Assembly (NCBI GenBank): GCA_016208495.1
Contig: JACQXX010000073.1
Coordinates: 1-39,745, forward strand
Direction: 5' to 3'
DNA: 39,745 nucleotides
Origin: Acidobacteriota bacterium
Lineage (GTDB): Bacteria > Acidobacteriota > Blastocatellia > Chloracidobacteriales > Chloracidobacteriaceae
The number at the start of each line of letters is the position of its first letter. The first letter of the stretch is position 1. Position numbers and translations under genes: made by a program. Shown here piece after piece: positions 12,954 to 39,745 of the stretch. The notes beneath the pieces are model-generated. The model worked only from the letters and a program-made list of their open reading frames with translations. It was not told the DNA's origin and made no database searches.

Positions 12954-13092
12954 AGGCGCGAAAGAGCAAACAACCGCTAAAGGTTCAGTGTTCGGAGCAT
13001 CGTCTTTAGACGAAAGGGTTTGTCTTGCGTTTCACCTGGCACTTCTCACGCCTGAAGGCGTTACTCTGAACTCTTTTTCTGAAGATGATTTT

Positions 13093-13203
13093 ATACCATT
13101 TTGTAATGGAATGCTCGCGTTAGAAAATAGTCAAGTAATTCAATCAAATAAACTTAGTGAACTACTGACTACTGACTACTGACTACTGACTACAAACTGG
13201 TAT
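13093..13203 (+). mobile_element. 111-bp TIR element with internal heptamer array, copy 1
   Basis: The ends ATACCATTTTGT and ACAAACTGGTAT match with one mismatch and are flanked by TTA (TTATACCA ... TGGTATTA). A conserved half (AATGGAAT..., GTCAAGTAATTCAATCAAATAAAC) is followed by four ACTACTG heptamers directly before the right end. It lacks coding capacity, like a MITE. It ends 21 bp before the ATG of the first TPR-CHAT gene, which has no clear Shine-Dalgarno sequence, so it may supply or disrupt the leader. The gap 12954-13224 holds little else. Confidence 0.8.
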
Positions 13204-13224
13204 TATCTTCTGGTTCGCAACCAT

Positions 13225-16200
13225 ATGAAAACAGTCAGACTTGTATTTATGGTGAGTGCCATTTTCTGGCTCTTCGGGGCCGAATTGTATCTGCTGCCAG
13301 TCGTTCGAACCGATGGTATCCTACGAACTAGCCTGAATTGCCAAACCCAGAGCCCGGAATCCCAATCCCAAATCTTGAAACCTGGGGAAAAACAAACCCA
13401 TTTGATCACACTCAAGGTAGGTGACCTGGTCAATGCCGTAGTCGAACAGCAGGGAATTGATATTGTGGTTCGGTTGGTATCGCCAGATGGGACAGTGGTA
13501 ACGGAAGTGGACAATTCAAGCCCCACGGAAGGACCAGAAACGTTGACCTGGGTAATGGAAACCGGTGGCACCTTCCAGCTTGAAATCGAATCGGTCGAAA
13601 AAGACGCCGCTCCGGGAACATATGTCCTCAAGTTGGATCCACCTCGCCCCGCTACGGAAACTGAACGTGCCCGCGTTGAAATTGAAAAAATCAGCTACCA
13701 GGTTCAGGAGTTGTTTCACCAGCGGAAATATGATCAGGCAATTACACTGGCTCAACAGGTGCTTGAACTGGCTGAAAAAGCACTTGGCCCGGATCATTCA
13801 GATGTGGGTGACTGTTTAAATAATCTGGCGGCGCTATATTGGGGGCGGGGAAACTACGACAAAGCCGAACCGCTATTTATCCGGGCGCTGGCCATTACAG
13901 AACAGAACTTTGGTCCAGAGCATCCTGATACGGTGGTGGGCGTGAACAATCTGGCGCAGCTCTATCGGGCCAAAGGTGATTTTGCCAAAGCCGCACCTTT
14001 GTACCAGCGGAGTTTGGTGATTCGGGAAAAGTTGTTCGGTACCGCCTCACTCGAAGTTTCTGAAAGTCTGAACAGTCTTGGTATGCTCAATCAAGGGTTG
14101 AGCAATTATTCCGAAGCTGAGACGCTCCTGACTCGTGCCCTGGCAATCCGTGAGAAAAAATTAGGGGCTGACCATCCCGATGTTGGTAAAGTGGTATCCA
14201 ATCTGGCATCACTTTATTTTGAAATCGGGAAATATACCAGAGCTGAACCTCTTTTTCTGCAGGCTATTGCGATTGATGAGAAAGCATTTGGTCCTAACCA
14301 TCCGAATGCTGCTGGCAGTCTGAATGATCTGGCCGGATTTTATCAGGCGAGAGCTGAATATACAAAGGCGGAACCACTTTTTCAGCGGTCGCTGGCCATC
14401 TGGGAAAAAGCAGTGGGGCCAAACCACCCGGAAGTTGCCCTCAGCCTGAACAACCTGGCCGATTTGTACTGGACCAAAGGTGACTTTGCGCGGGCGGAAC
14501 CGCTCTTTGTGCGGTCGCTGGCGATCCGAGAGAAAACAGTTGGCCCCAACCATCCGGATGTGGCAGTGAGTCTTAACAATCTGGCCAGTGTGTATATGTC
14601 ACAAAAGGACTATGCGAAAGCCGGGCCATTGTTTCAGCGGTCACTGGCGATTCGCGAAAAAGTGTTCGGTCCAGAACATCCATCGGTTGCCAGAGCTCTC
14701 GACAATTTGGCAGGGCTGTACCGAAGACAGGGCGACCGGGAAAAGATGGAACCGCTGATGCTCCGGGCACTGGCGATTCGAGAGAAAACACTTGATGCGG
14801 ATCATCCCGAACTGGCCTATTCTTTGAACCGGCTGGGCTGGTTGTATAAGGGGAAAGGTGATTACCAGCGAGCCGAGTCGCTTTTTCTGCGTGATCTGGC
14901 CATAAGTGAGAAAGCATTTGGGCCAGATCATCCAGAAGTTGCTAAAACGCTCAATAGTCTGGCGGAGTTGTCCCAGGGCAAAGGTGAAATCGCAAAGGCG
15001 ATTGCCTATCGGGTGCGTGGGAACGATACAACGGAACGCGATCTGGTTAGAAACCTGGTGGCCGGCTCTGAAAACCAGAAAATGTTGTATTTGAAAACCA
15101 CTGATTACCGAACCGACGAGACGATTACACTGCATGTCCAGTCGGCGCCGCAGAATCAAGCCGCACTCCAGGCTGCGCTGACGGTTATCTTGCGCCGGAA
15201 AGGTCGGTCACTTGATGCTGCAAGCCAGAGTATTGAACTGATAAGACAGCGGGCCAGCGCCGAAGACAAAAAATTACTGGACGAACTGACCGAAGCCAAA
15301 TCAGAACTCTCACGCTTGACCTTGCGTGGACCTGGAAAAGAAGGAATTCCTCGACATCAGGAATTTCTGAAGGAACTCGAAGTCAGAGCAGATCAACTTG
15401 AAGGTCAGGTCAATGCACGCAGTGCCGAATATCGGTCACATTCCCAACCGATCACGCTGGAAGCGGTTCAGAAAGCTATTCCGGCAAATGCGGCATTGAT
15501 TGAGTTTGCCTTATACAAGCCGTATGACCTCGAAACTCAAACGTACGGCAACTGGCGATATGTAGCCTATGTTATTCCGGGTTCCGGGCATGGAAAACAG
15601 GGTTCCGGGTTCCGGGTTCCGGGTTCCGGGCCAACCCCGAGTCGAAATCGTGACCAAAAGTCTAACCGACGAGTGATCAATCCACGGAAAAAAGGCAAAA
15701 TCCCGGAACCCGGAACCCGGAACCCGGAACCCGGAACCCTGGATTTTGAACCCGGAACCCGGAACCCGGAACCCTGTTCCTGGGTTGACCTTGGTGAAGC
15801 CGAACCGATTGACCAGGTCGTGAGCGAATTTCGCAAGGTTCTAAGCGACCGGCGCACAGACATTGCCAAAGACGTGACTCCTATCGCGCAGGTGCTTGAC
15901 GCCCTGGTGATGAAGCCGGTTCGGAAGTTGATTGGACTCAAGCGACATCTTCTGATTTCCCCGGATGGCGCATTAAATCTGGTGCCGTTTTCAGCCCTGA
16001 TGGATGAACAGGGAAAATATCTGGTGGAAAATTACACTTTGACTTACCTGACCAGCGGGCGTGATTTGCTGCGACTGGGCGTCAACTTTATCTCAGAGGA
16101 ACCAGTGCTGGTGATTGCCAATCCGGATTATGCCCAGGGAAGTGGGCCGGTTTTGGCTGGACAGGCGATGAAACCATTGCTGCCGCTTCCCGGCACGGAG

Positions 16201-16851
16201 CGCGAAGGCAAGGAAATTCAGAAATTGCTGCCGGGGTCAAGACTGGTGGTTCAGGGGGAGGCGACAAAAGAAATCGTCAAGCAGGTTCACCGTCCGGAAA
16301 TGCTCCATATCGCCACCCACGGTTACTTTCTGGAAGACGCTCCGGAGGAATTCCCGACTGAAGATGACCGGCGTCTGCAATCAACTGACCCAATCAACCT
16401 TGGAAAGCTGCACGTTGACAATCCGCTTCTTCGATCCTGGCTGTTTTTTGCCAGTGCCAATCAGGGAAACGAGAAAAGCAACGGGGTTCTGACGGCGCTC
16501 GAAGCCTCGCAACTCGATTTGTGGGGCACCCGGCTGGTGGTGCTTTCAGCCTGTGACACGGGGTTGGGCGAAGTTAAAAACGGCGACGGGGTTTTTGGCC
16601 TCCGCCGGGCACTGGTTCTGGCCGGAAGTGAAGCCCAGATGATGAGTCTCTGGGCGGTGTCGGATACTGGAACCCGTGAATTGATGACCGAATACTATCG
16701 CCGCCTCAAAGCTGGGGAAGGTCGTTCGGAGGCACTTCGCAACACCCAGCTTAAATTGCTCAAAGATCCAAAGCGCCAGCATCCATTTTACTGGGCGAGT
16801 TTTATTCAATCAGGCGAATGGAGGCCATTGGAGCGGAAGCAAGCGAAATAG
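13225..16851 (+). CDS. Exported PPC-TPR-CHAT protein (caspase-like), paralogue 1
   Basis: This 1208-residue protein starts with a signal peptide (MKTVRL, then a hydrophobic run to about 20). A PPC-type beta-sandwich (about 45-140) has the QGIDIVVRLVSPDG and GGTFQLEIE strands. About ten 42-residue kinesin-light-chain-type TPRs follow (about 155-600; A-PLFxRSLAIREK, GPxHPDVAxSLNNLA). The C-terminal CHAT domain has the His of HIATHG (His1032) and the Cys of LSACDTG (Cys1110), the caspase-like dyad, so peptidase activity is plausible. Residues 785-852 are an in-frame repeat-derived insert (GSGFRVP and PEPGTRN heptapeptides) between YVAYVI and WVDLGEA, which would normally be close together. The downstream gene at 17196 is a paralogue. 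Targets are unknown. An extracytoplasmic location is inferred from the signal peptide and PPC domain. Confidence 0.88.
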   Translation: MKTVRLVFMVSAIFWLFGAELYLLPVVRTDGILRTSLNCQTQSPESQSQILKPGEKQTHLITLKVGDLVNAVVEQQGIDIVVRLVSPDGTVVTEVDNSSPTEGPETLTWVMETGGTFQLEIESVEKDAAPGTYVLKLDPPRPATETERARVEIEKISYQVQELFHQRKYDQAITLAQQVLELAEKALGPDHSDVGDCLNNLAALYWGRGNYDKAEPLFIRALAITEQNFGPEHPDTVVGVNNLAQLYRAKGDFAKAAPLYQRSLVIREKLFGTASLEVSESLNSLGMLNQGLSNYSEAETLLTRALAIREKKLGADHPDVGKVVSNLASLYFEIGKYTRAEPLFLQAIAIDEKAFGPNHPNAAGSLNDLAGFYQARAEYTKAEPLFQRSLAIWEKAVGPNHPEVALSLNNLADLYWTKGDFARAEPLFVRSLAIREKTVGPNHPDVAVSLNNLASVYMSQKDYAKAGPLFQRSLAIREKVFGPEHPSVARALDNLAGLYRRQGDREKMEPLMLRALAIREKTLDADHPELAYSLNRLGWLYKGKGDYQRAESLFLRDLAISEKAFGPDHPEVAKTLNSLAELSQGKGEIAKAIAYRVRGNDTTERDLVRNLVAGSENQKMLYLKTTDYRTDETITLHVQSAPQNQAALQAALTVILRRKGRSLDAASQSIELIRQRASAEDKKLLDELTEAKSELSRLTLRGPGKEGIPRHQEFLKELEVRADQLEGQVNARSAEYRSHSQPITLEAVQKAIPANAALIEFALYKPYDLETQTYGNWRYVAYVIPGSGHGKQGSGFRVPGSGPTPSRNRDQKSNRRVINPRKKGKIPEPGTRNPEPGTLDFEPGTRNPEPCSWVDLGEAEPIDQVVSEFRKVLSDRRTDIAKDVTPIAQVLDALVMKPVRKLIGLKRHLLISPDGALNLVPFSALMDEQGKYLVENYTLTYLTSGRDLLRLGVNFISEEPVLVIANPDYAQGSGPVLAGQAMKPLLPLPGTEREGKEIQKLLPGSRLVVQGEATKEIVKQVHRPEMLHIATHGYFLEDAPEEFPTEDDRRLQSTDPINLGKLHVDNPLLRSWLFFASANQGNEKSNGVLTALEASQLDLWGTRLVVLSACDTGLGEVKNGDGVFGLRRALVLAGSEAQMMSLWAVSDTGTRELMTEYYRRLKAGEGRSEALRNTQLKLLKDPKRQHPFYWASFIQSGEWRPLERKQAK
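15577..15780. repeat. In-frame palindromic heptamer element inside CHAT paralogue 1
   Basis: The left arm has GGGTTCC heptamers (15577-15632) and the right arm GGAACCC heptamers (about 15702-15777), around a centre of about 70 bp. The whole is 204 bp, a multiple of 3, with no stop codon. It encodes residues 785-852. The arms could pair as a long hairpin in DNA or mRNA. The same kind of element occupies the equivalent site in the second paralogue. Confidence 0.85.
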
Positions 16852-17033
16852 CGAGTCACGAAGGAGTGAAGTCGTCAATCCAGGACAATCTCAGAGAAAA
16901 ATTGCCCAAACCGGCCCTGGATTTGCTATGGTTGAATGGTGTAACCCCGCACCACTCTTCAACATAGGTATTGCAGTCTGACAGATATCTCTCGGATTAT
17001 TCAGAGCACGAACAAGCTGAAAAATAAGTGGTT

Positions 17034-17144
17034 ATACCAATTTGCAATGGAATCCTCGTATGAGAAAACAGTCAAGTAATTCAATCAAATAAACTGAGTG
17101 AACTACGGACTACGGACTACGGACTACTGACTACAAACTGGTAT
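17034..17144 (+). mobile_element. 111-bp TIR element with internal heptamer array, copy 2
   Basis: This copy has the same length and layout as 13093-13203: ATACCAATTTGC left end, the conserved GTCAAGTAATTCAATCAAATAAAC core, a heptamer array, and ACAAACTGGTAT right end, flanked by TTA. Here three of the four heptamers are ACTACGG and one ACTACTG, so the array unit has changed within an otherwise conserved element. It lies between the two TPR-CHAT genes. The rest of 16852-17195 shows no gene; TAGGAG precedes the next ATG. Confidence 0.8.
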
Positions 17145-17195
17145 TAGACTGCTCATAATCCATATATTCACAATTGGATTCAGATAGGAGTTTCA

Positions 17196-20100
17196 ATGCG
17201 GGCAATTGTAAGGCACGCCGCGCTGACTGCGGTATTGATTTTCGGGCCGGGTGGAGTGGATTTTGGAGCTCAACCGCTCAGGCCATCACTTCCTCCATTT
17301 CAAAAACACAATTCCGATGTACCAGTCTTGGTTCCAGGCAAGGTCATTGACCAGGAACTCAAAGGCGGAGAGGTCAATCGTTTCCAAATTCGTTTAAAAG
17401 CCCGGCAGTTCCTTGATTTGAGCGTTGAGCAGCAGGGGATTGATGTCGTGGTCCGGTTGCTTGGTCCAGGTGGAAAACAACTCATCGAGGTTGATAGTCC
17501 AAATGGTCCTGACGGTCCGGAACCAGTCGTGCTGATTGTGAACCAATCGGGAACCTACACTCTTGAGATCGAAGCCCCCGACCCGGCTGCTTCGACGGGC
17601 AAGTATCAGGTCAAATGTGAACCTTTGCACCGGGCAACGCCGCAAGATCAAAAAAGAGCCCGTCAGATTCAAGCCGGGAACGAATTTAACCGGCTTTTAA
17701 ATGAGGGAACGGCGCTTCGTCAGGCTGGAAAATATCAGAACGCACAGGCAGTTTTGCAACAAGCGGTAACCCTGGCTGAGCAAATATTTGGACCGGAGCA
17801 CATGGATACCGCCGCGGCCTACAACAATCTGGCGGATGTGTTTGCTTCGACGGATGACTTTTCCAAAGCGGAATCTCTCTACAAACGGGCACTGGCGATT
17901 TGTGAAAAGATAGCTGGGCCAGAGCATCTTGATACGGCGATCACACTTAACAATCTGGGCCAGCTCTATAAGAGCAAAGGCGATTTTGAGACCGCGCTCA
18001 GGTACTATCAGCGATCTTCCTCAATTATTGAGAAAGCACTTGGGCCTGAGCATCCACAAACCGGCGCTATGCTCAATAATTTGGGAATGCTGTACCGGGC
18101 GATGGGCAAGACTAATCAGGCTGAACAATTGCTCCAGCGGACGCTTGAAATTTGGGAAAAAACACTTGGCCCGGAACATCCGCAAACCATCACCTGCCTC
18201 AACAATCTGGCTGGGCTTTGTCTGGTAATGGGCAACTATGACCGTTCGCTCAAACTGTACCAGCAGGTGGTTGTCCTGCGTGAGAAAGTGTTAGGACCCA
18301 ATCACCCGGAAACGGCGGTGAGTCTCAATGAACTGGCTACGTTGCTGCGAATTATGGGCAAGTACGAACAGGCAGAACCACTCTTTCGACGGTCACTCGC
18401 CAGCCTTGAGAAAAGCCTGGGTCCAGAACACTCGTTGATTGCCAAAGCTCTCAATGATGGTGCGACGTTGTACAGCGCGAAAGGCGACTTCGCTCAGGCT
18501 GAGGCGCTCTATCAGCGGGCACTGACGATGAATGAGCATCTTTTGGGTAAAGATCATCCATCCGTGGCCTCGACCTTGAACAATCTGGCACTGCTATACC
18601 GGACAAAAGGTGAGTATGTGAAAGCTGAATCACTTTTTGAGCGGTCATTGAAGATTGATGAAAAGGCGTTAGGCCCTGATCATCCAGGGGTTTCAGCGAC
18701 ACTGAGTAATCTGGCCGGTCTGTACAAAGACATGGGCGAATTTAAAAAAGCCGAGGTGCTCTATCAACGCTCACTCACCATCAGTGAGAAAACACAGGGG
18801 AGCACTCATCCGGAAACAGCAGCCAGTATCAATAATTTAGCGGAGCTATACCGTGAACTGGGTGACTATCCAAACGCTGAGACGTTGTTTCAGCGGTCGC
18901 TGACGATTTTTGAAACAGCATTGGGGGAGGATCACCCGGAAACCGCCAATATCTATACCAATCTGGCCGGAATCCATATGGCGCAAGGGGATTTTGCCCA
19001 GGCAGAACCCCTGTATCAGCGGGCCCTTGCGATTCTTGAAAAAAAGCTTGGCCCATTCCATCCAGAGGTTGCCCGCACGCTCAATAACCTGGCAACGGTC
19101 TATCGGTACAAAGGGGACTTTCAGCAGGCTGAAGTCCTGCACCGACGCTCACTGGCCATCATTGAGCAAGCCTTTGGTCCTGACCATCCATCAGTCGCCT
19201 CGGCGTTAAACAATCTGGCGATGGTATTGCTTTTAAAACACGAGTATCCGGAAGCCGAACCCCTGCTTCGGCGTGGCCAGGCGATCCGCGAAAAAAACTT
19301 TGGGAAGGACCATCCCGATGTGGCTGCCAGTTTGGGAACCCTGGCCAACCTGATGGTCCTCAAAGGTGATTTAACTCAGGCTGAATTCCTCAATGAGCAG
19401 GCGCTGGCCATTCGTGAAAAGACCTTTGGAACCGATCATCCGGATATTGCACTCACGTTGTTGAATCTTGGAAATGTGTATCGGGTCAAGGGAAACTTTG
19501 CCAGAGCCGAGGCCCACCTCACCCGTGCGCTGGCAATCGTCAAAACCACCTTGGGGCCAGATCACCCACAACGGGCAAACTGTCTCAGCAAACTGGCGTT
19601 GATGTCTTTAGGCCGTAATCAGGTAGGGGAGGCCATTCGCTATCAGGCGCAATGCGGTGAAATTCGCGAACGGGACCTGCTCAGGAACCTGGTCACCGGT
19701 TCTGAAAGCCAAAAGATATCGTACTTGAAACTCACCCAAAATGAGGTAGATACCGCCCTCTCACTCAACCAGCAGTTTGCCCCAAAGAGTTCCGAAGCAG
19801 CACAATCGGCACTGACGATGCTGCTTCGCCGCAAAGGACGGGCGCTCGATGCCGCAACCAATGCGATAGAGATTGTTCGTCAGCGTGCCACCCCCGAAGA
19901 CCGGAAAATTCTGGATGAGTTGTTTCGGCTGCGATCACAAATTTCGGTTTTAACACTCCGGGGGCCAGGCAAAGACTCAAGTCAACGGTATCTGGCAACC
20001 TTAAAAGCGCTCAATGAACAGGCTGAACAGCTTGAAGCCCAGATCAGCGCCCGCAGTGTTGAGTTTAAAGTCCAAACCACACCGATTACTTTAGAGTCCA

Positions 20101-21578
20101 TTCAGAAGTTGATTCCAGCCGATGCCGCACTGGTCGAATTTGCTCTCTACCACCCCTATGACCCAAAGACGGACACGTTTAACCCGCCGCATTATGCTGT
20201 CTATGTGCTGAAAAACCAGGGTTCAGGGACAGGAAACCAGGGTTCAGGGTTCAGGGTTCAGGGTTCAGGGCCAGAAACCCAGGGTTCAGGGTTCAGGGTT
20301 CAAGGTTCAGGGCTTGATTCAACAAAAAATCAGTACTCTCAAATTCAGCATCTTCAACCTGTGGCCAATCACAAGGACCAAGATCAACGGAATAAAACTG
20401 AAAACCCGGAACCCGGAACCCGGAACCCGGAACCCGGCTTTTCAAACCCGGAACCTGGAACCCTGCTCTGGGCCGATCTGGGGGAAGCCAGTGAAATCGA
20501 ACCGGTCATCAAGGCTTTTCGACAGGAACTTCAGTCAGTTACCGCCGACCCTGGGCGGCGGCTGGTTTTAGGTTCTGGACAATCATCAAAAAAGCCCAGA
20601 CTCAAAGAACTGGGACGAAAGCTGGAGAAGCTTATTTTTCAGCCGGTTCGCCATCTGTTGGGGGCAAAAACTCGGGTTCTGTTGTCGCCGGATGGCAGCC
20701 TCAATTTAATCCCGTTTGATGCCCTTGTTGATGAGCAGGGAAAATATCTGGTCGAGCGCTATGAATTTTCATATTTGACCAGTGGCCGGGATTTGCTGAG
20801 ACTTCAATCACACATTCCCAGCGAACAACCTCCGTTAATTATTGCCAATCCAGACTATGCAAAAGGAAAAGGGCCGGCATTATTTGGACTCCAATTTGAG
20901 CCCCTTACCCGTCTGGAAGGAACTGAACGAGAGGCTCAACAACTCAAGGCAACGTTTCCTCAATCCGTGGTTTACCTTGATCGCCAGGCCACCAAATCAG
21001 TCTTGACCCTGACGCACCGCCCGTTGTTTTTACACATCAGTACCCATGGTGCCTTCCTGGAAGATCAGGCGACAGGACCAGATCTGGTCAACGATCAAAT
21101 ACGGCTTCTGGAGCGGACTGATGAGTCACGCGGGTTGGTACTGCAATCCTTCAGTCAGACCAATCCATTGCTCAGGTCGTGTCTCTTTTTTGCTGGGGCA
21201 AACCAGCCAACCACAAAGACCAATAACGGGGTATTAACCGCGCTCGAAGTGGCTGGGCTTGATTTGTGGGGGACCCGGCTGGTGGTACTTTCGGCCTGTG
21301 ACAGTGGATTGGGAGACATCAAAACCAGAGATGGCGTATACGGTTTGCGTCGGGCGCTGGTCCTGGCCGGTGCCGAAAGTCAGTTGGTCAGCCTGTGGCC
21401 AGTTTCGGATGCTGGTACTCAGGAATTAATGAGCCGGTATTATCAGCTTTTGAAAACCGGAGTTGGGCGTTCTGCCGCACTTCGGCAGGTCCGGTTGGAA
21501 CTACTGAAAAACCCGGTGCGACGACATCCCTACTACTGGGCCAGCTTTATCCTTTCGGGTGACTGGAAACCGCTTTAG
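17196..21578 (+). CDS. Exported PPC-TPR-CHAT protein (caspase-like), paralogue 2
   Basis: This 1460-residue paralogue of the previous gene has TAGGAG eight bases before its ATG. Its parts are a signal peptide (to about 28), a PPC-type domain (about 48-150; QGIDVVVRLLGPGG, SGTYTLEIE), about fifteen 42-residue KLC-type TPRs (about 170-830; five more than paralogue 1) and a C-terminal CHAT domain. The dyad is His1284 (HISTHG) and Cys1368 (LSACDSG). Residues 1006-1091 are an in-frame heptamer-derived insert between YAVYVL and WADLGEA, the same site as in paralogue 1. TPRs in such proteins usually bind partners that control the CHAT domain (family knowledge). An envelope-located protease or signalling scaffold is inferred. 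Neighbours do not identify a substrate. Confidence 0.88.
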   Translation: MRAIVRHAALTAVLIFGPGGVDFGAQPLRPSLPPFQKHNSDVPVLVPGKVIDQELKGGEVNRFQIRLKARQFLDLSVEQQGIDVVVRLLGPGGKQLIEVDSPNGPDGPEPVVLIVNQSGTYTLEIEAPDPAASTGKYQVKCEPLHRATPQDQKRARQIQAGNEFNRLLNEGTALRQAGKYQNAQAVLQQAVTLAEQIFGPEHMDTAAAYNNLADVFASTDDFSKAESLYKRALAICEKIAGPEHLDTAITLNNLGQLYKSKGDFETALRYYQRSSSIIEKALGPEHPQTGAMLNNLGMLYRAMGKTNQAEQLLQRTLEIWEKTLGPEHPQTITCLNNLAGLCLVMGNYDRSLKLYQQVVVLREKVLGPNHPETAVSLNELATLLRIMGKYEQAEPLFRRSLASLEKSLGPEHSLIAKALNDGATLYSAKGDFAQAEALYQRALTMNEHLLGKDHPSVASTLNNLALLYRTKGEYVKAESLFERSLKIDEKALGPDHPGVSATLSNLAGLYKDMGEFKKAEVLYQRSLTISEKTQGSTHPETAASINNLAELYRELGDYPNAETLFQRSLTIFETALGEDHPETANIYTNLAGIHMAQGDFAQAEPLYQRALAILEKKLGPFHPEVARTLNNLATVYRYKGDFQQAEVLHRRSLAIIEQAFGPDHPSVASALNNLAMVLLLKHEYPEAEPLLRRGQAIREKNFGKDHPDVAASLGTLANLMVLKGDLTQAEFLNEQALAIREKTFGTDHPDIALTLLNLGNVYRVKGNFARAEAHLTRALAIVKTTLGPDHPQRANCLSKLALMSLGRNQVGEAIRYQAQCGEIRERDLLRNLVTGSESQKISYLKLTQNEVDTALSLNQQFAPKSSEAAQSALTMLLRRKGRALDAATNAIEIVRQRATPEDRKILDELFRLRSQISVLTLRGPGKDSSQRYLATLKALNEQAEQLEAQISARSVEFKVQTTPITLESIQKLIPADAALVEFALYHPYDPKTDTFNPPHYAVYVLKNQGSGTGNQGSGFRVQGSGPETQGSGFRVQGSGLDSTKNQYSQIQHLQPVANHKDQDQRNKTENPEPGTRNPEPGFSNPEPGTLLWADLGEASEIEPVIKAFRQELQSVTADPGRRLVLGSGQSSKKPRLKELGRKLEKLIFQPVRHLLGAKTRVLLSPDGSLNLIPFDALVDEQGKYLVERYEFSYLTSGRDLLRLQSHIPSEQPPLIIANPDYAKGKGPALFGLQFEPLTRLEGTEREAQQLKATFPQSVVYLDRQATKSVLTLTHRPLFLHISTHGAFLEDQATGPDLVNDQIRLLERTDESRGLVLQSFSQTNPLLRSCLFFAGANQPTTKTNNGVLTALEVAGLDLWGTRLVVLSACDSGLGDIKTRDGVYGLRRALVLAGAESQLVSLWPVSDAGTQELMSRYYQLLKTGVGRSAALRQVRLELLKNPVRRHPYYWASFILSGDWKPL
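20211..20468. repeat. In-frame palindromic heptamer element inside CHAT paralogue 2
   Basis: The left part has GGGTTCA heptamers in two blocks (20219-20310). The right part has GGAACCC heptamers (about 20405-20464). The centre of about 90 bp is unlike that in paralogue 1. The whole is 258 bp (86 codons) with no stop. The left unit differs from paralogue 1 (A instead of C at position 7), which argues for separate arrival or later conversion of the array. Confidence 0.85.
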
Positions 21579-22284: not shown

Positions 22285-22519
22285 GGGTTCCGGGTTCCGG
22301 GTTCCGGGTTCCGGGTTCCGGGTTCCGGGTTTTCGACTGGTTTCATTCAGAAATCTCCTTGTACCATTTTGAAATCATTCAATCGTATTTCACTAAACCC
22401 TGAACCCCGAACCCTGAACCCTGAACCCTGAACCCCGAACCCTGAACCCTGAACCCTGAACCCCGAACCCCGAACCCCGAACCCTGAACCCCGAACCCTG
22501 AACCCCGAACCCCGAACCC
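22285..22519. repeat. Palindromic heptamer element, GGGTTCC arm opposed to (T/C)GAACCC arm
   Basis: Five to six GGGTTCC units (22285-22329) run into TTTTCGACTGG. A centre of about 60 bp follows, then about 18 units of TGAACCC mixed with CGAACCC (22394-22519). The arms are of very unequal length. The right arm ends two bases before the AAGGAG ribosome-binding site of the next gene. TGAACCC contains a stop in the cyclic reading, unlike the heptamers found inside genes. Confidence 0.88.
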
Positions 22520-25184: not shown

Positions 25185-25187
25185 CTG

Positions 25188-25374
25188 TTCAGGGTTCAGG
25201 GTTCAGGGTTCAGGGTTCAGGGTTCAGGGTTCAGGGTTCAGGGTTCAGGGTTCAGGGTTCAGGGTTCAGGGTTCAGGGTTCAGGGTTTTCGAATTCATGT
25301 CCCTTATGTCCCTTATGTCCTTTTTGTCCTTTTGTTTGTTTGCCCGGAACCCAGAACCCCGAGCCCGGAACCCG
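25188..25374. repeat. Palindromic heptamer element with 14 TTCAGGG units
   Basis: Fourteen perfect TTCAGGG units (25188-25285) run into TTTTCGAATTC. Then come 9-bp ATGTCCCTT/ATGTCCTTT-type units and a short opposed arm of GGAACCC-type units (25343-25374, imperfect). It starts three bases after the P460 gene stop. With the repeat at 25490-25604 it fills the gap 25185-25624, in which no gene was seen. Confidence 0.88.
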
Positions 25375-37406: not shown

Positions 37407-37631
37407 GGGTTCAGGGTTTTCGGAAGGGATGAGGGATGAGGGATGAGGGATGAAAAAAATCACCTTGTCACCTTGTCATTCTGTCACCTTGTCATCCTGT
37501 TAGGGTTCCGGGTTCCGGGTCTTCGAATTTATGTCCTTTAAGTCCTTTAAGTCCCTTTCGTCCTTTTCTTTCCCTGACCCCCGACCCCTAACCCCCGAAC
37601 CCTGACCCCGGAACCCTGAACCCGGAACCCC
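37407..37631. repeat. Composite palindromic element (GGGTTC class), same module order as 11587-11814
   Basis: In order: GGGTTCA units, TTTTCGG, four GGGATGA heptamers, AAAAAAATCA, five 8-bp TCACCTTG/TCATTCTG units, GGGTTCC units, TCTTCGAATTTATG, 9-bp TCCTTTAAG units, TCCCTTTCG, then opposed GGAACCC/TGAACCC/CGACCCC units up to 37631. It ends eight bases before the ATG of the next gene and leaves no Shine-Dalgarno sequence there. Confidence 0.85.
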
Positions 37632-39495: not shown

Positions 39496-39745
39496 AGTCA
39501 GTAGTCAGTAGTCAGTAGACAAAACCAGGATGTTTCGGTTTAGAGATTTTTTGGGAAGAATTGTTCATAACTGACTCAAATAGAATCAAATGCACTTGAC
39601 AAAGAATTCAAAACCCCAACACTCGACTACTGACTACTGACTACTGACTACTGACTACTGACTACTGACTACTGACTACTGACTACTGACTACTGACTAC
39701 TGACTACTGACTACTGACTACTGACTACTGACTACTGACTACTGA
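39496..39745. repeat. Heptamer-armed element with unique core, copy Y (inverted, cut by window end)
   Basis: Three AGTCAGT units (39496-39518) are followed by a core that in reverse complement matches copy X (GTCGAGTGTTGGGGTTTTGA ... GTCAAGTG ... GACAATTCTT...). An opposed array of about 17 ACTACTG units then runs to the end of the window. It begins seven bases after the stop of the methyltransferase/reductase gene. Confidence 0.85.

Follow-up and report, generated by a model that had tools for sequence, protein, structure and literature searches.

The window, the whole 39,745-nucleotide stretch of DNA that we analysed, carries two genes, W1 and W2, whose products are TPR-CHAT proteins with an insert at the same position (Table 1). 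In each protein, the insert lies between the strand YVAYVI or YAVYVL and the strand WVDLGEA or WADLGEA, and G-rich heptamer arrays lead into a polar, non-repeat centre that is followed by C-rich heptamer arrays. Direct reading and repeat finders bore out what the sequence-only reading had described: heptamer arrays face each other in frame at one turn in both genes, the inserts measure 68 and 86 residues (204 nt and 258 nt), and the two centres differ, to the point of looking unrelated. Compared to the insert-free spacing of 36 residues, the net gain is 61 residues in W1 and 79 residues in W2. The right side of W1 also has a single TGAACCC unit, which is read outside the stop frame. The arms are able to pair, and RNA folding gave −121.3 kcal/mol for W1 and −101.3 kcal/mol for W2, both being raw energies; the left arms contain four GGG tracts with 4-base loops, a putative G-quadruplex motif only.

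Upstream of each CHAT gene lies one of two 115-bp repeats (13091-13205 and 17032-17146) that are 90% alike. By eye, these MITE-like repeats have imperfect inverted ends (TATACCA...TGGTATTA) flanking an ACTACTG or ACTACGG heptamer array.

Table 1. Positions of the TPR-CHAT genes, the parts of their inserts and the intergenic convergent elements in the window
Feature	Position	Strand	Remarks
TPR-CHAT gene W1, insert carrier, 1208 aa	13225..16851	+	TPR families; CHAT PF12770 at residues 886-1197
W1 in-frame insert, beta-hairpin turn upstream of CHAT	15577..15780	+	204 nt, 68 codons
W1 left arm, GGGTTCC x4.4	15600..15630	+	repeat finder
W1 centre, not repeat-built	15631..15701	+	
W1 right arm	15702..15774	+	GGAACCC arrays 15702-15739, 15748-15774
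W1 CHAT domain	15880..16815	+	Pfam CHAT match
TPR-CHAT gene W2, insert carrier, 1460 aa	17196..21578	+	TPR + CHAT
W2 in-frame insert, turn position as in W1	20211..20468	+	258 nt, 86 codons
W2 left arm	20217..20313	+	GGGTTCA arrays, incl. 20238-20302
W2 centre, not repeat-built	20314..20402	+	
W2 right arm, GGAACCC units	20403..20465	+	perfect 20403-20437, degenerate beyond
W2 CHAT domain	20607..21563	+	Pfam CHAT match; CHAT begins at residue 1138
Intergenic convergent element	22285..22519	.	GGGTTCC x6, then TGAACCC/CGAACCC units
Intergenic convergent element	25187..25373	.	core GGGTTTTCGAATTCATGTCC
Intergenic convergent element	37503..37630	.	core GGGTCTTCGAATTTATGTCC

In-frame insertion at a beta-hairpin turn

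The W1 and W2 segments are in-frame insertions at a beta-hairpin turn before the CHAT domain. A survey of 80 named loci from Acidobacteriota, Cyanobacteria, Myxococcota and other groups, at least three of them from the sister genome itself, yielded 84 homologous ORFs, of which 81 were scored and 3 were unscored. The segment that a native CHAT linker would share with distant CHAT homologues was absent from 78 of the 81 scored ORFs, which had 0 extra residues at the turn, and a native linker was rejected on this ground. The other scored ORFs had +1, +2 and +3 residues in one case each, the +3 homologue (L183) reading like the gene L036 of the sister-genus genome. This genome, placed in the same family, is referred to below as G001, and that of the window as G000. 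Their 55 close paralogues (32 from G000 and 23 from G001) had a spacing between fixed motifs of 36 residues in 35 cases, longer in 13 and shorter in 4; the other three were missed by the motif expression and have a turn that is ordinary by eye. Insert-free relatives have a short turn, e.g., LLNNEGEIDW, and the existence of insert-free paralogues with tight boundaries upholds the earlier view that the DNA entered the turn in frame.

An AlphaFold2 model of 548 W1 residues, computed from an alignment of 24 sequences out of 33 first tried, reached a mean pLDDT of 76.7 and a pTM of 0.76. Confident strands were predicted at 118-125 and 192-198 around a low-confidence loop (pLDDT <50 at 128-176 and 178-188). 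The surface loop suggested by the sequence-only reading is consistent with this model insofar as a low-confidence loop is placed between two strands; that the protein tolerates it is, as before, presumed. By structure, the nearest solved folds were Craspase TPR-CHAT (Csx29) and separase, which suggests a shared CHAT/separase peptidase fold, whereas identity to the Craspase chains was only 11-16% among the matches listed and a sequence-profile search of the PDB found no solved relative.

Recurrence of the inserts among CHAT paralogues

CHAT genes are greatly expanded in both genomes, with 60 Pfam CHAT matches in G000 and 65 in G001; 52 and 43 CHAT ORFs, respectively, were examined, the rest being mostly weaker, truncated or, in G001, lower-ranked. 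A longer turn was found in 5 of the 32 close paralogues of G000 and 8 of the 23 of G001. Both genes that had been named as carriers are carriers, and the set is wider than these two paralogues, taking in L021, L129 and L127 of G000 and eight sister-genus genes. The G000 carriers have GGGTTCC or GGGTTCA units, plus GGAACCC. In G001, long inserts are carried by L029, L030, L031, L160 and L035, and three short cases, L032 (5573), L154 and L036, have +3 to +5 residues only. Across the ten long inserts, the extra residues number 14-79. In L029 to L031, the left arm is made of AGTCCTGGG-like 9-mers and the right arm of the complementary 9-mers. L160 has a right arm but no left arm, L035 contains units resembling AAGCCCC, and tandem units are hardly present in L127 and L035. 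The doublet of AGTCCTGGG (x2) had 102 overlapping matches in G001 and 0 in G000, and eight opposite-strand pairs of AGTCCTGGG within 250 bp, identified by eye among the matches listed, were all convergent.

The insert label was then mapped on a tree of the 71 rows scoring >400 bits, built under the simple model LG+G4 and with 22 of its 68 inner branches weak; 41 lower-scoring rows, 40 of them from a second CHAT subfamily, were left out. The label showed 9 changes (bootstrap range, 9-11), at least 6 of them forced by starred (strong) branches, and 5 of 500 label shuffles were as low as observed. There were 7 changes for the ten long inserts alone and 4 for the five G000 carriers alone, all of these being counts that cannot separate gain from loss. 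At L021, the sister of a carrier is an insert-free gene (100/100). The inserts at the turn have undergone repeated gain or loss. The nearest tree rows of W1 and of W2 each include insert-free genes, and the tree does not require a single insertion before the W1/W2 duplication; such a shared origin may nevertheless apply, W1 and W2 as a single clade being not rejected (AU p = 0.076).

The centres of W1, W2, L021 and L129 look unrelated, and matches between these inserts come from the arms. A blastn comparison of the ten inserts with the loci examined returned many hits, led by the repeat arms among the matches listed (up to 14 per insert), and an element of constant sequence, with one centre common to its copies, was rejected on this basis.

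Between the L031 insert and the inserts of L029 and L030, identity is 87-90%, and the L031 flanks show 53-79% identity in 75-nt windows, with the maximum just upstream. L029 and L030 are sisters whose downstream identity (91% in the nearest window) is about equal to that of their inserts, and the case for conversion therefore rests on L031. A search of the whole G001 genome with the L029-L031 centre found those three genes only, at ≤3 mismatches, with 2 matches for the reversed control; moreover, L029, L030 and L031 as one clade, a group chosen after seeing the tree, were rejected (AU p = 0.022). These data fit best with a short conversion tract that would have carried the insert between paralogues.

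Heptamer arrays across the genome and within genes

Pairs of heptamer arrays that face each other across a non-repeat centre form a genome-wide class that is mostly intergenic, and the inserts consist of units that are common in the genome carrying them. A G000 sample of 719,674 bases (0.72 Mb, window included) contained 146 period-7 arrays of ≥20 bp, and a single letter shuffle of this sample gave 0; at other periods there were 0 arrays of period 2-6, 22 of period 8 and a few longer ones. Overlapping matches to GGGTTCN x3 numbered 2532 in G000 (reversed control, 21), 813 in G001, 144 in G021 and 20, 13 and 7 in three further genomes, with 0 in 52 of 58 genomes. In 1.17 Mb (84% ORF) made up of loci partly picked for arrays or CHAT genes, 255 of 293 arrays were intergenic, 19 lay at ORF edges and 19 inside ORFs. 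Neighbouring GGGTTCN pairs within 250 bp were convergent in 19 of 27 cases, on the same strand in 8 and divergent in 0, in a sample that includes the window. Over a wider set of G000 loci, 40 of 64 such pairs were convergent and none was divergent. In total, the analysis covered ~1.3 of 8.4 Mb of G000, some of the loci having been selected for arrays. Among 34 convergent pairs from loci partly chosen for arrays, 28 lay between co-directional genes, 2 inside ORFs and 4 otherwise. Of 162 genomes belonging to the class, 4 had close convergent pairs.

Many intergenic copies share a core, GGGTTTTCGAATTTATGTCC, with 90 matches in G000 at ≤2 mismatches and 0 in 19 relatives; this core was found in none of the CHAT-turn inserts. 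The elements at 25187-25373 and 37503-37630 combine the 90-match core with 9-mer TGTCCTTTA-like repeats, and G000 also has 8-mer arrays of AAGGTGAC and ACAGGGTG. The window and the contig both end inside 17 GACTACT copies (39625-39745), so that the break in the assembly may be due to a heptamer array.

Interior GGGTTCN arrays, defined as two or more units in an array lying away from the ORF ends (with a cut of 100 residues from the start for CHAT genes and 30 for others), were detected in 4 of 32 CHAT paralogues versus 2 of 391 other ORFs of G000 (p = 4e-4). The preference for CHAT is modest, because without the window genes only 2 of 30 CHAT paralogues have such arrays (p = 0.027). L127 falls below this rule, and a cut of 30 would add the CHAT gene L123, whose array lies near the start. 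The two non-CHAT ORFs are a hybrid kinase (L066), with the array within its receiver domain, and a TPR protein (L071), with the array in a linker; in the former, a hybrid histidine kinase at L066:836-5155, the heptamer-derived peptide within the receiver domain reads TLNPEPRTP. In the second, more distant CHAT subfamily, heptamer-like DNA occupies a different, naturally variable loop after the PFAALP motif (L144, L170, L172 and L173, and L136 with one unit). A polyketide-synthase-like gene of G001 (L084:3022-11748) has VQGSGSGVQGS-type heptamer peptides in its linkers.

Frame 0 is open in 10 of the 10 long inserts, frame 1 in 7 and frame 2 in 1, compared to 39 of 168 open frames in 28 other convergent elements, a stop avoidance that is partly circular because only open genes get counted. 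Frame 0 is also the least hydrophobic of the three frames in 9 of the 10, although L029, L030 and L031 do not count as independent cases. In long runs of TGAACCC, one of three units has a stop, whichever the frame. The right arms at the CHAT turn are mostly GGAACCC, so that each unit loses one pair when the left arm is GGGTTCA (W2 and L021); TGAACCC in short runs occurs within genes elsewhere (L144 and L066). Between the arms of one element, the variable base agreed in 20 of 36 cases versus 14.2 expected (p = 0.023), and strict arm complementarity was discarded, this being only a weak excess over chance. Judging from the reading frames, the inserts are probably translated, and an excised, intron-like element appears disfavoured because the frame is kept in every long insert.

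Origin of the inserts and their place among known repeats

It is unlikely that a discrete mobile element, comparable to Rickettsia palindromic elements or to MITEs, was inserted in frame at a preferred target. The modules are indeed compact, palindromic overall and found both inside and between genes, many intergenic copies have in common the core that 19 relatives lack, and there is some excess in CHAT genes; however, that core is missing from the turn, only L029-L031 have centres that do not look unrelated, their centre having been found in G001 at these genes alone, and a different unit occupies the same turn in three sister-genus genes. The likeness to Rickettsia elements drawn in the sequence-only reading holds for the in-frame effect but not for one discrete element with a consensus, since the heptamer arms are genome-wide, the centres differ, three genes use 9-mers, and gain or loss was repeated. 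As reviewed in PMC2229807, Rickettsia palindromic elements form a family of 105-146 bp whose members end in inverted repeats. Compared by anatomy, palindromic DNA occupies intergenic sites in both systems and is also found in frame within protein-coding genes, in Rickettsia translated and tolerated, and conserved protein genes carry such in-frame insertions here as well. Unlike that family, the arms here are simple repeats, the centres are unrelated, and a family sequence along the whole copy was not found among the W1, W2, L021 and L129 inserts.

A little more doubtful still is a phase-variation switch, in which the number of heptamers would shift the frame and turn CHAT off or on. Seven is not a multiple of three, and in silico, adding or removing one left-arm unit ends W1 at residue 811 or 814, before CHAT (886), and W2 at residue 1042 or 1122, before CHAT (1138), while the loss of three units keeps the frame. 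Against such a switch, L029-L031 use 9-mers, which cause no frame shift, L127 and L035 are nearly without tandem units, and the open state is found in each of the ten long inserts. The least probable of these alternatives is a selected functional loop, a repeat-made regulatory or bait loop of the protease diversified by paralogues. Such a loop would agree with the finding that a single turn was enlarged repeatedly in both genera, with heptamer peptides in another loop of the distant CHAT subfamily, with Craspase TPR-CHAT and separase as the nearest solved folds, and with the low hydrophobicity of frame 0 in 9 of 10 inserts. Nonetheless, 27 of 32 and 15 of 23 paralogues lack an enlarged turn, most carriers differ in sequence, and plain tolerance accounts for the same facts.

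Dispersed heptamer simple-sequence repeats are known as STRR, and Vioque reportedly described STRR in RNase P RNA in 1997. The arrays described here share with STRR many head-to-tail 7-nt arrays, a mostly intergenic location and convergent pairing. According to the accessible text of PMC4692102, G-rich heptamers of Xanthomonas (GGGAATC) and Nostoc (GGGGAYT) are dispersed, preferably between co-directional genes, form convergent pairs (70 and 75 cases) and are under-represented in coding regions. Likewise, we observed convergent G-tract arrays, with 28 of 32 intergenic convergent pairs between co-directional genes in loci partly chosen for arrays; the unit differs, however, and the in-frame loop insertion seen here was not found in that text. 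P6b of the Nostoc tRNA-Leu intron, a heptanucleotide stem-loop that varies in copy number and takes up non-repeat sequence (PMC3488679, in part), also has pairing heptamer arms at a variable stem-loop, but it is located in intron RNA and the heptamers here in a protein gene. Borg tandem repeats give disordered protein regions, and their in-gene units are direct and all divisible by three according to PMC9879509; in both systems, in-gene repeats of a few genomes would create new disordered segments, but the units here are of 7 and face each other. Beggiatoaceae TAACTGA heptamers, which the available portion of PMC4679880 presents as one unit, mostly direct and upstream of starts, are similarly dispersed, mostly intergenic and patchy across phyla. 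One further known coding-repeat family shares dyad symmetry and shuffling within genomes, but has a conserved 25-residue motif that the inserts here lack. Altogether, the component parts are each known already, and their combination was not found in the literature searched; in that literature, which contained no preprints and few subscription papers, no report was found that describes an insertion of heptamer arrays into CHAT proteins or into genes of Blastocatellia.

We consider it likely that the inserts are coding versions of the genome's simple-repeat stem-loop DNA, tolerated and translated as a disordered loop. Arrays would arise and alter their length through slippage, and the facing arm would be made through hairpin-coupled copying. 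Inside genes, such DNA may survive only at sites that accept extra peptide without harm, in this case the hairpin turn. Long stop-bearing runs would be purged from genes, so that GGAACCC would come to prevail over TGAACCC in the right arms at the turn, to the detriment of arm pairing, and the insert may pass to paralogues through a short conversion tract. The outcome would be a translated, disordered loop of 14-79 extra residues in the long cases, with the CHAT fold intact, most likely near neutral. Our confidence in this explanation is slightly reduced by the modest like-for-like excess at the CHAT site and by the fact that most inserts have frame 1 open as well. It is improbable, in our judgment, that stop-free repeat modules are repeatedly built into the same hairpin turns of the expanded TPR-CHAT protease family, renewed with the current unit and passed between paralogues, such that loop diversification is repeat-driven and then selected. 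In one gene family of two genera, versions of the loop without an insert, with a short one and with a long one form a natural series, for which the 60 and 65 CHAT matches of the two genomes serve as replicates. With differing repeat units at the same turn, simple repeats as a source of disordered segments become directly testable.
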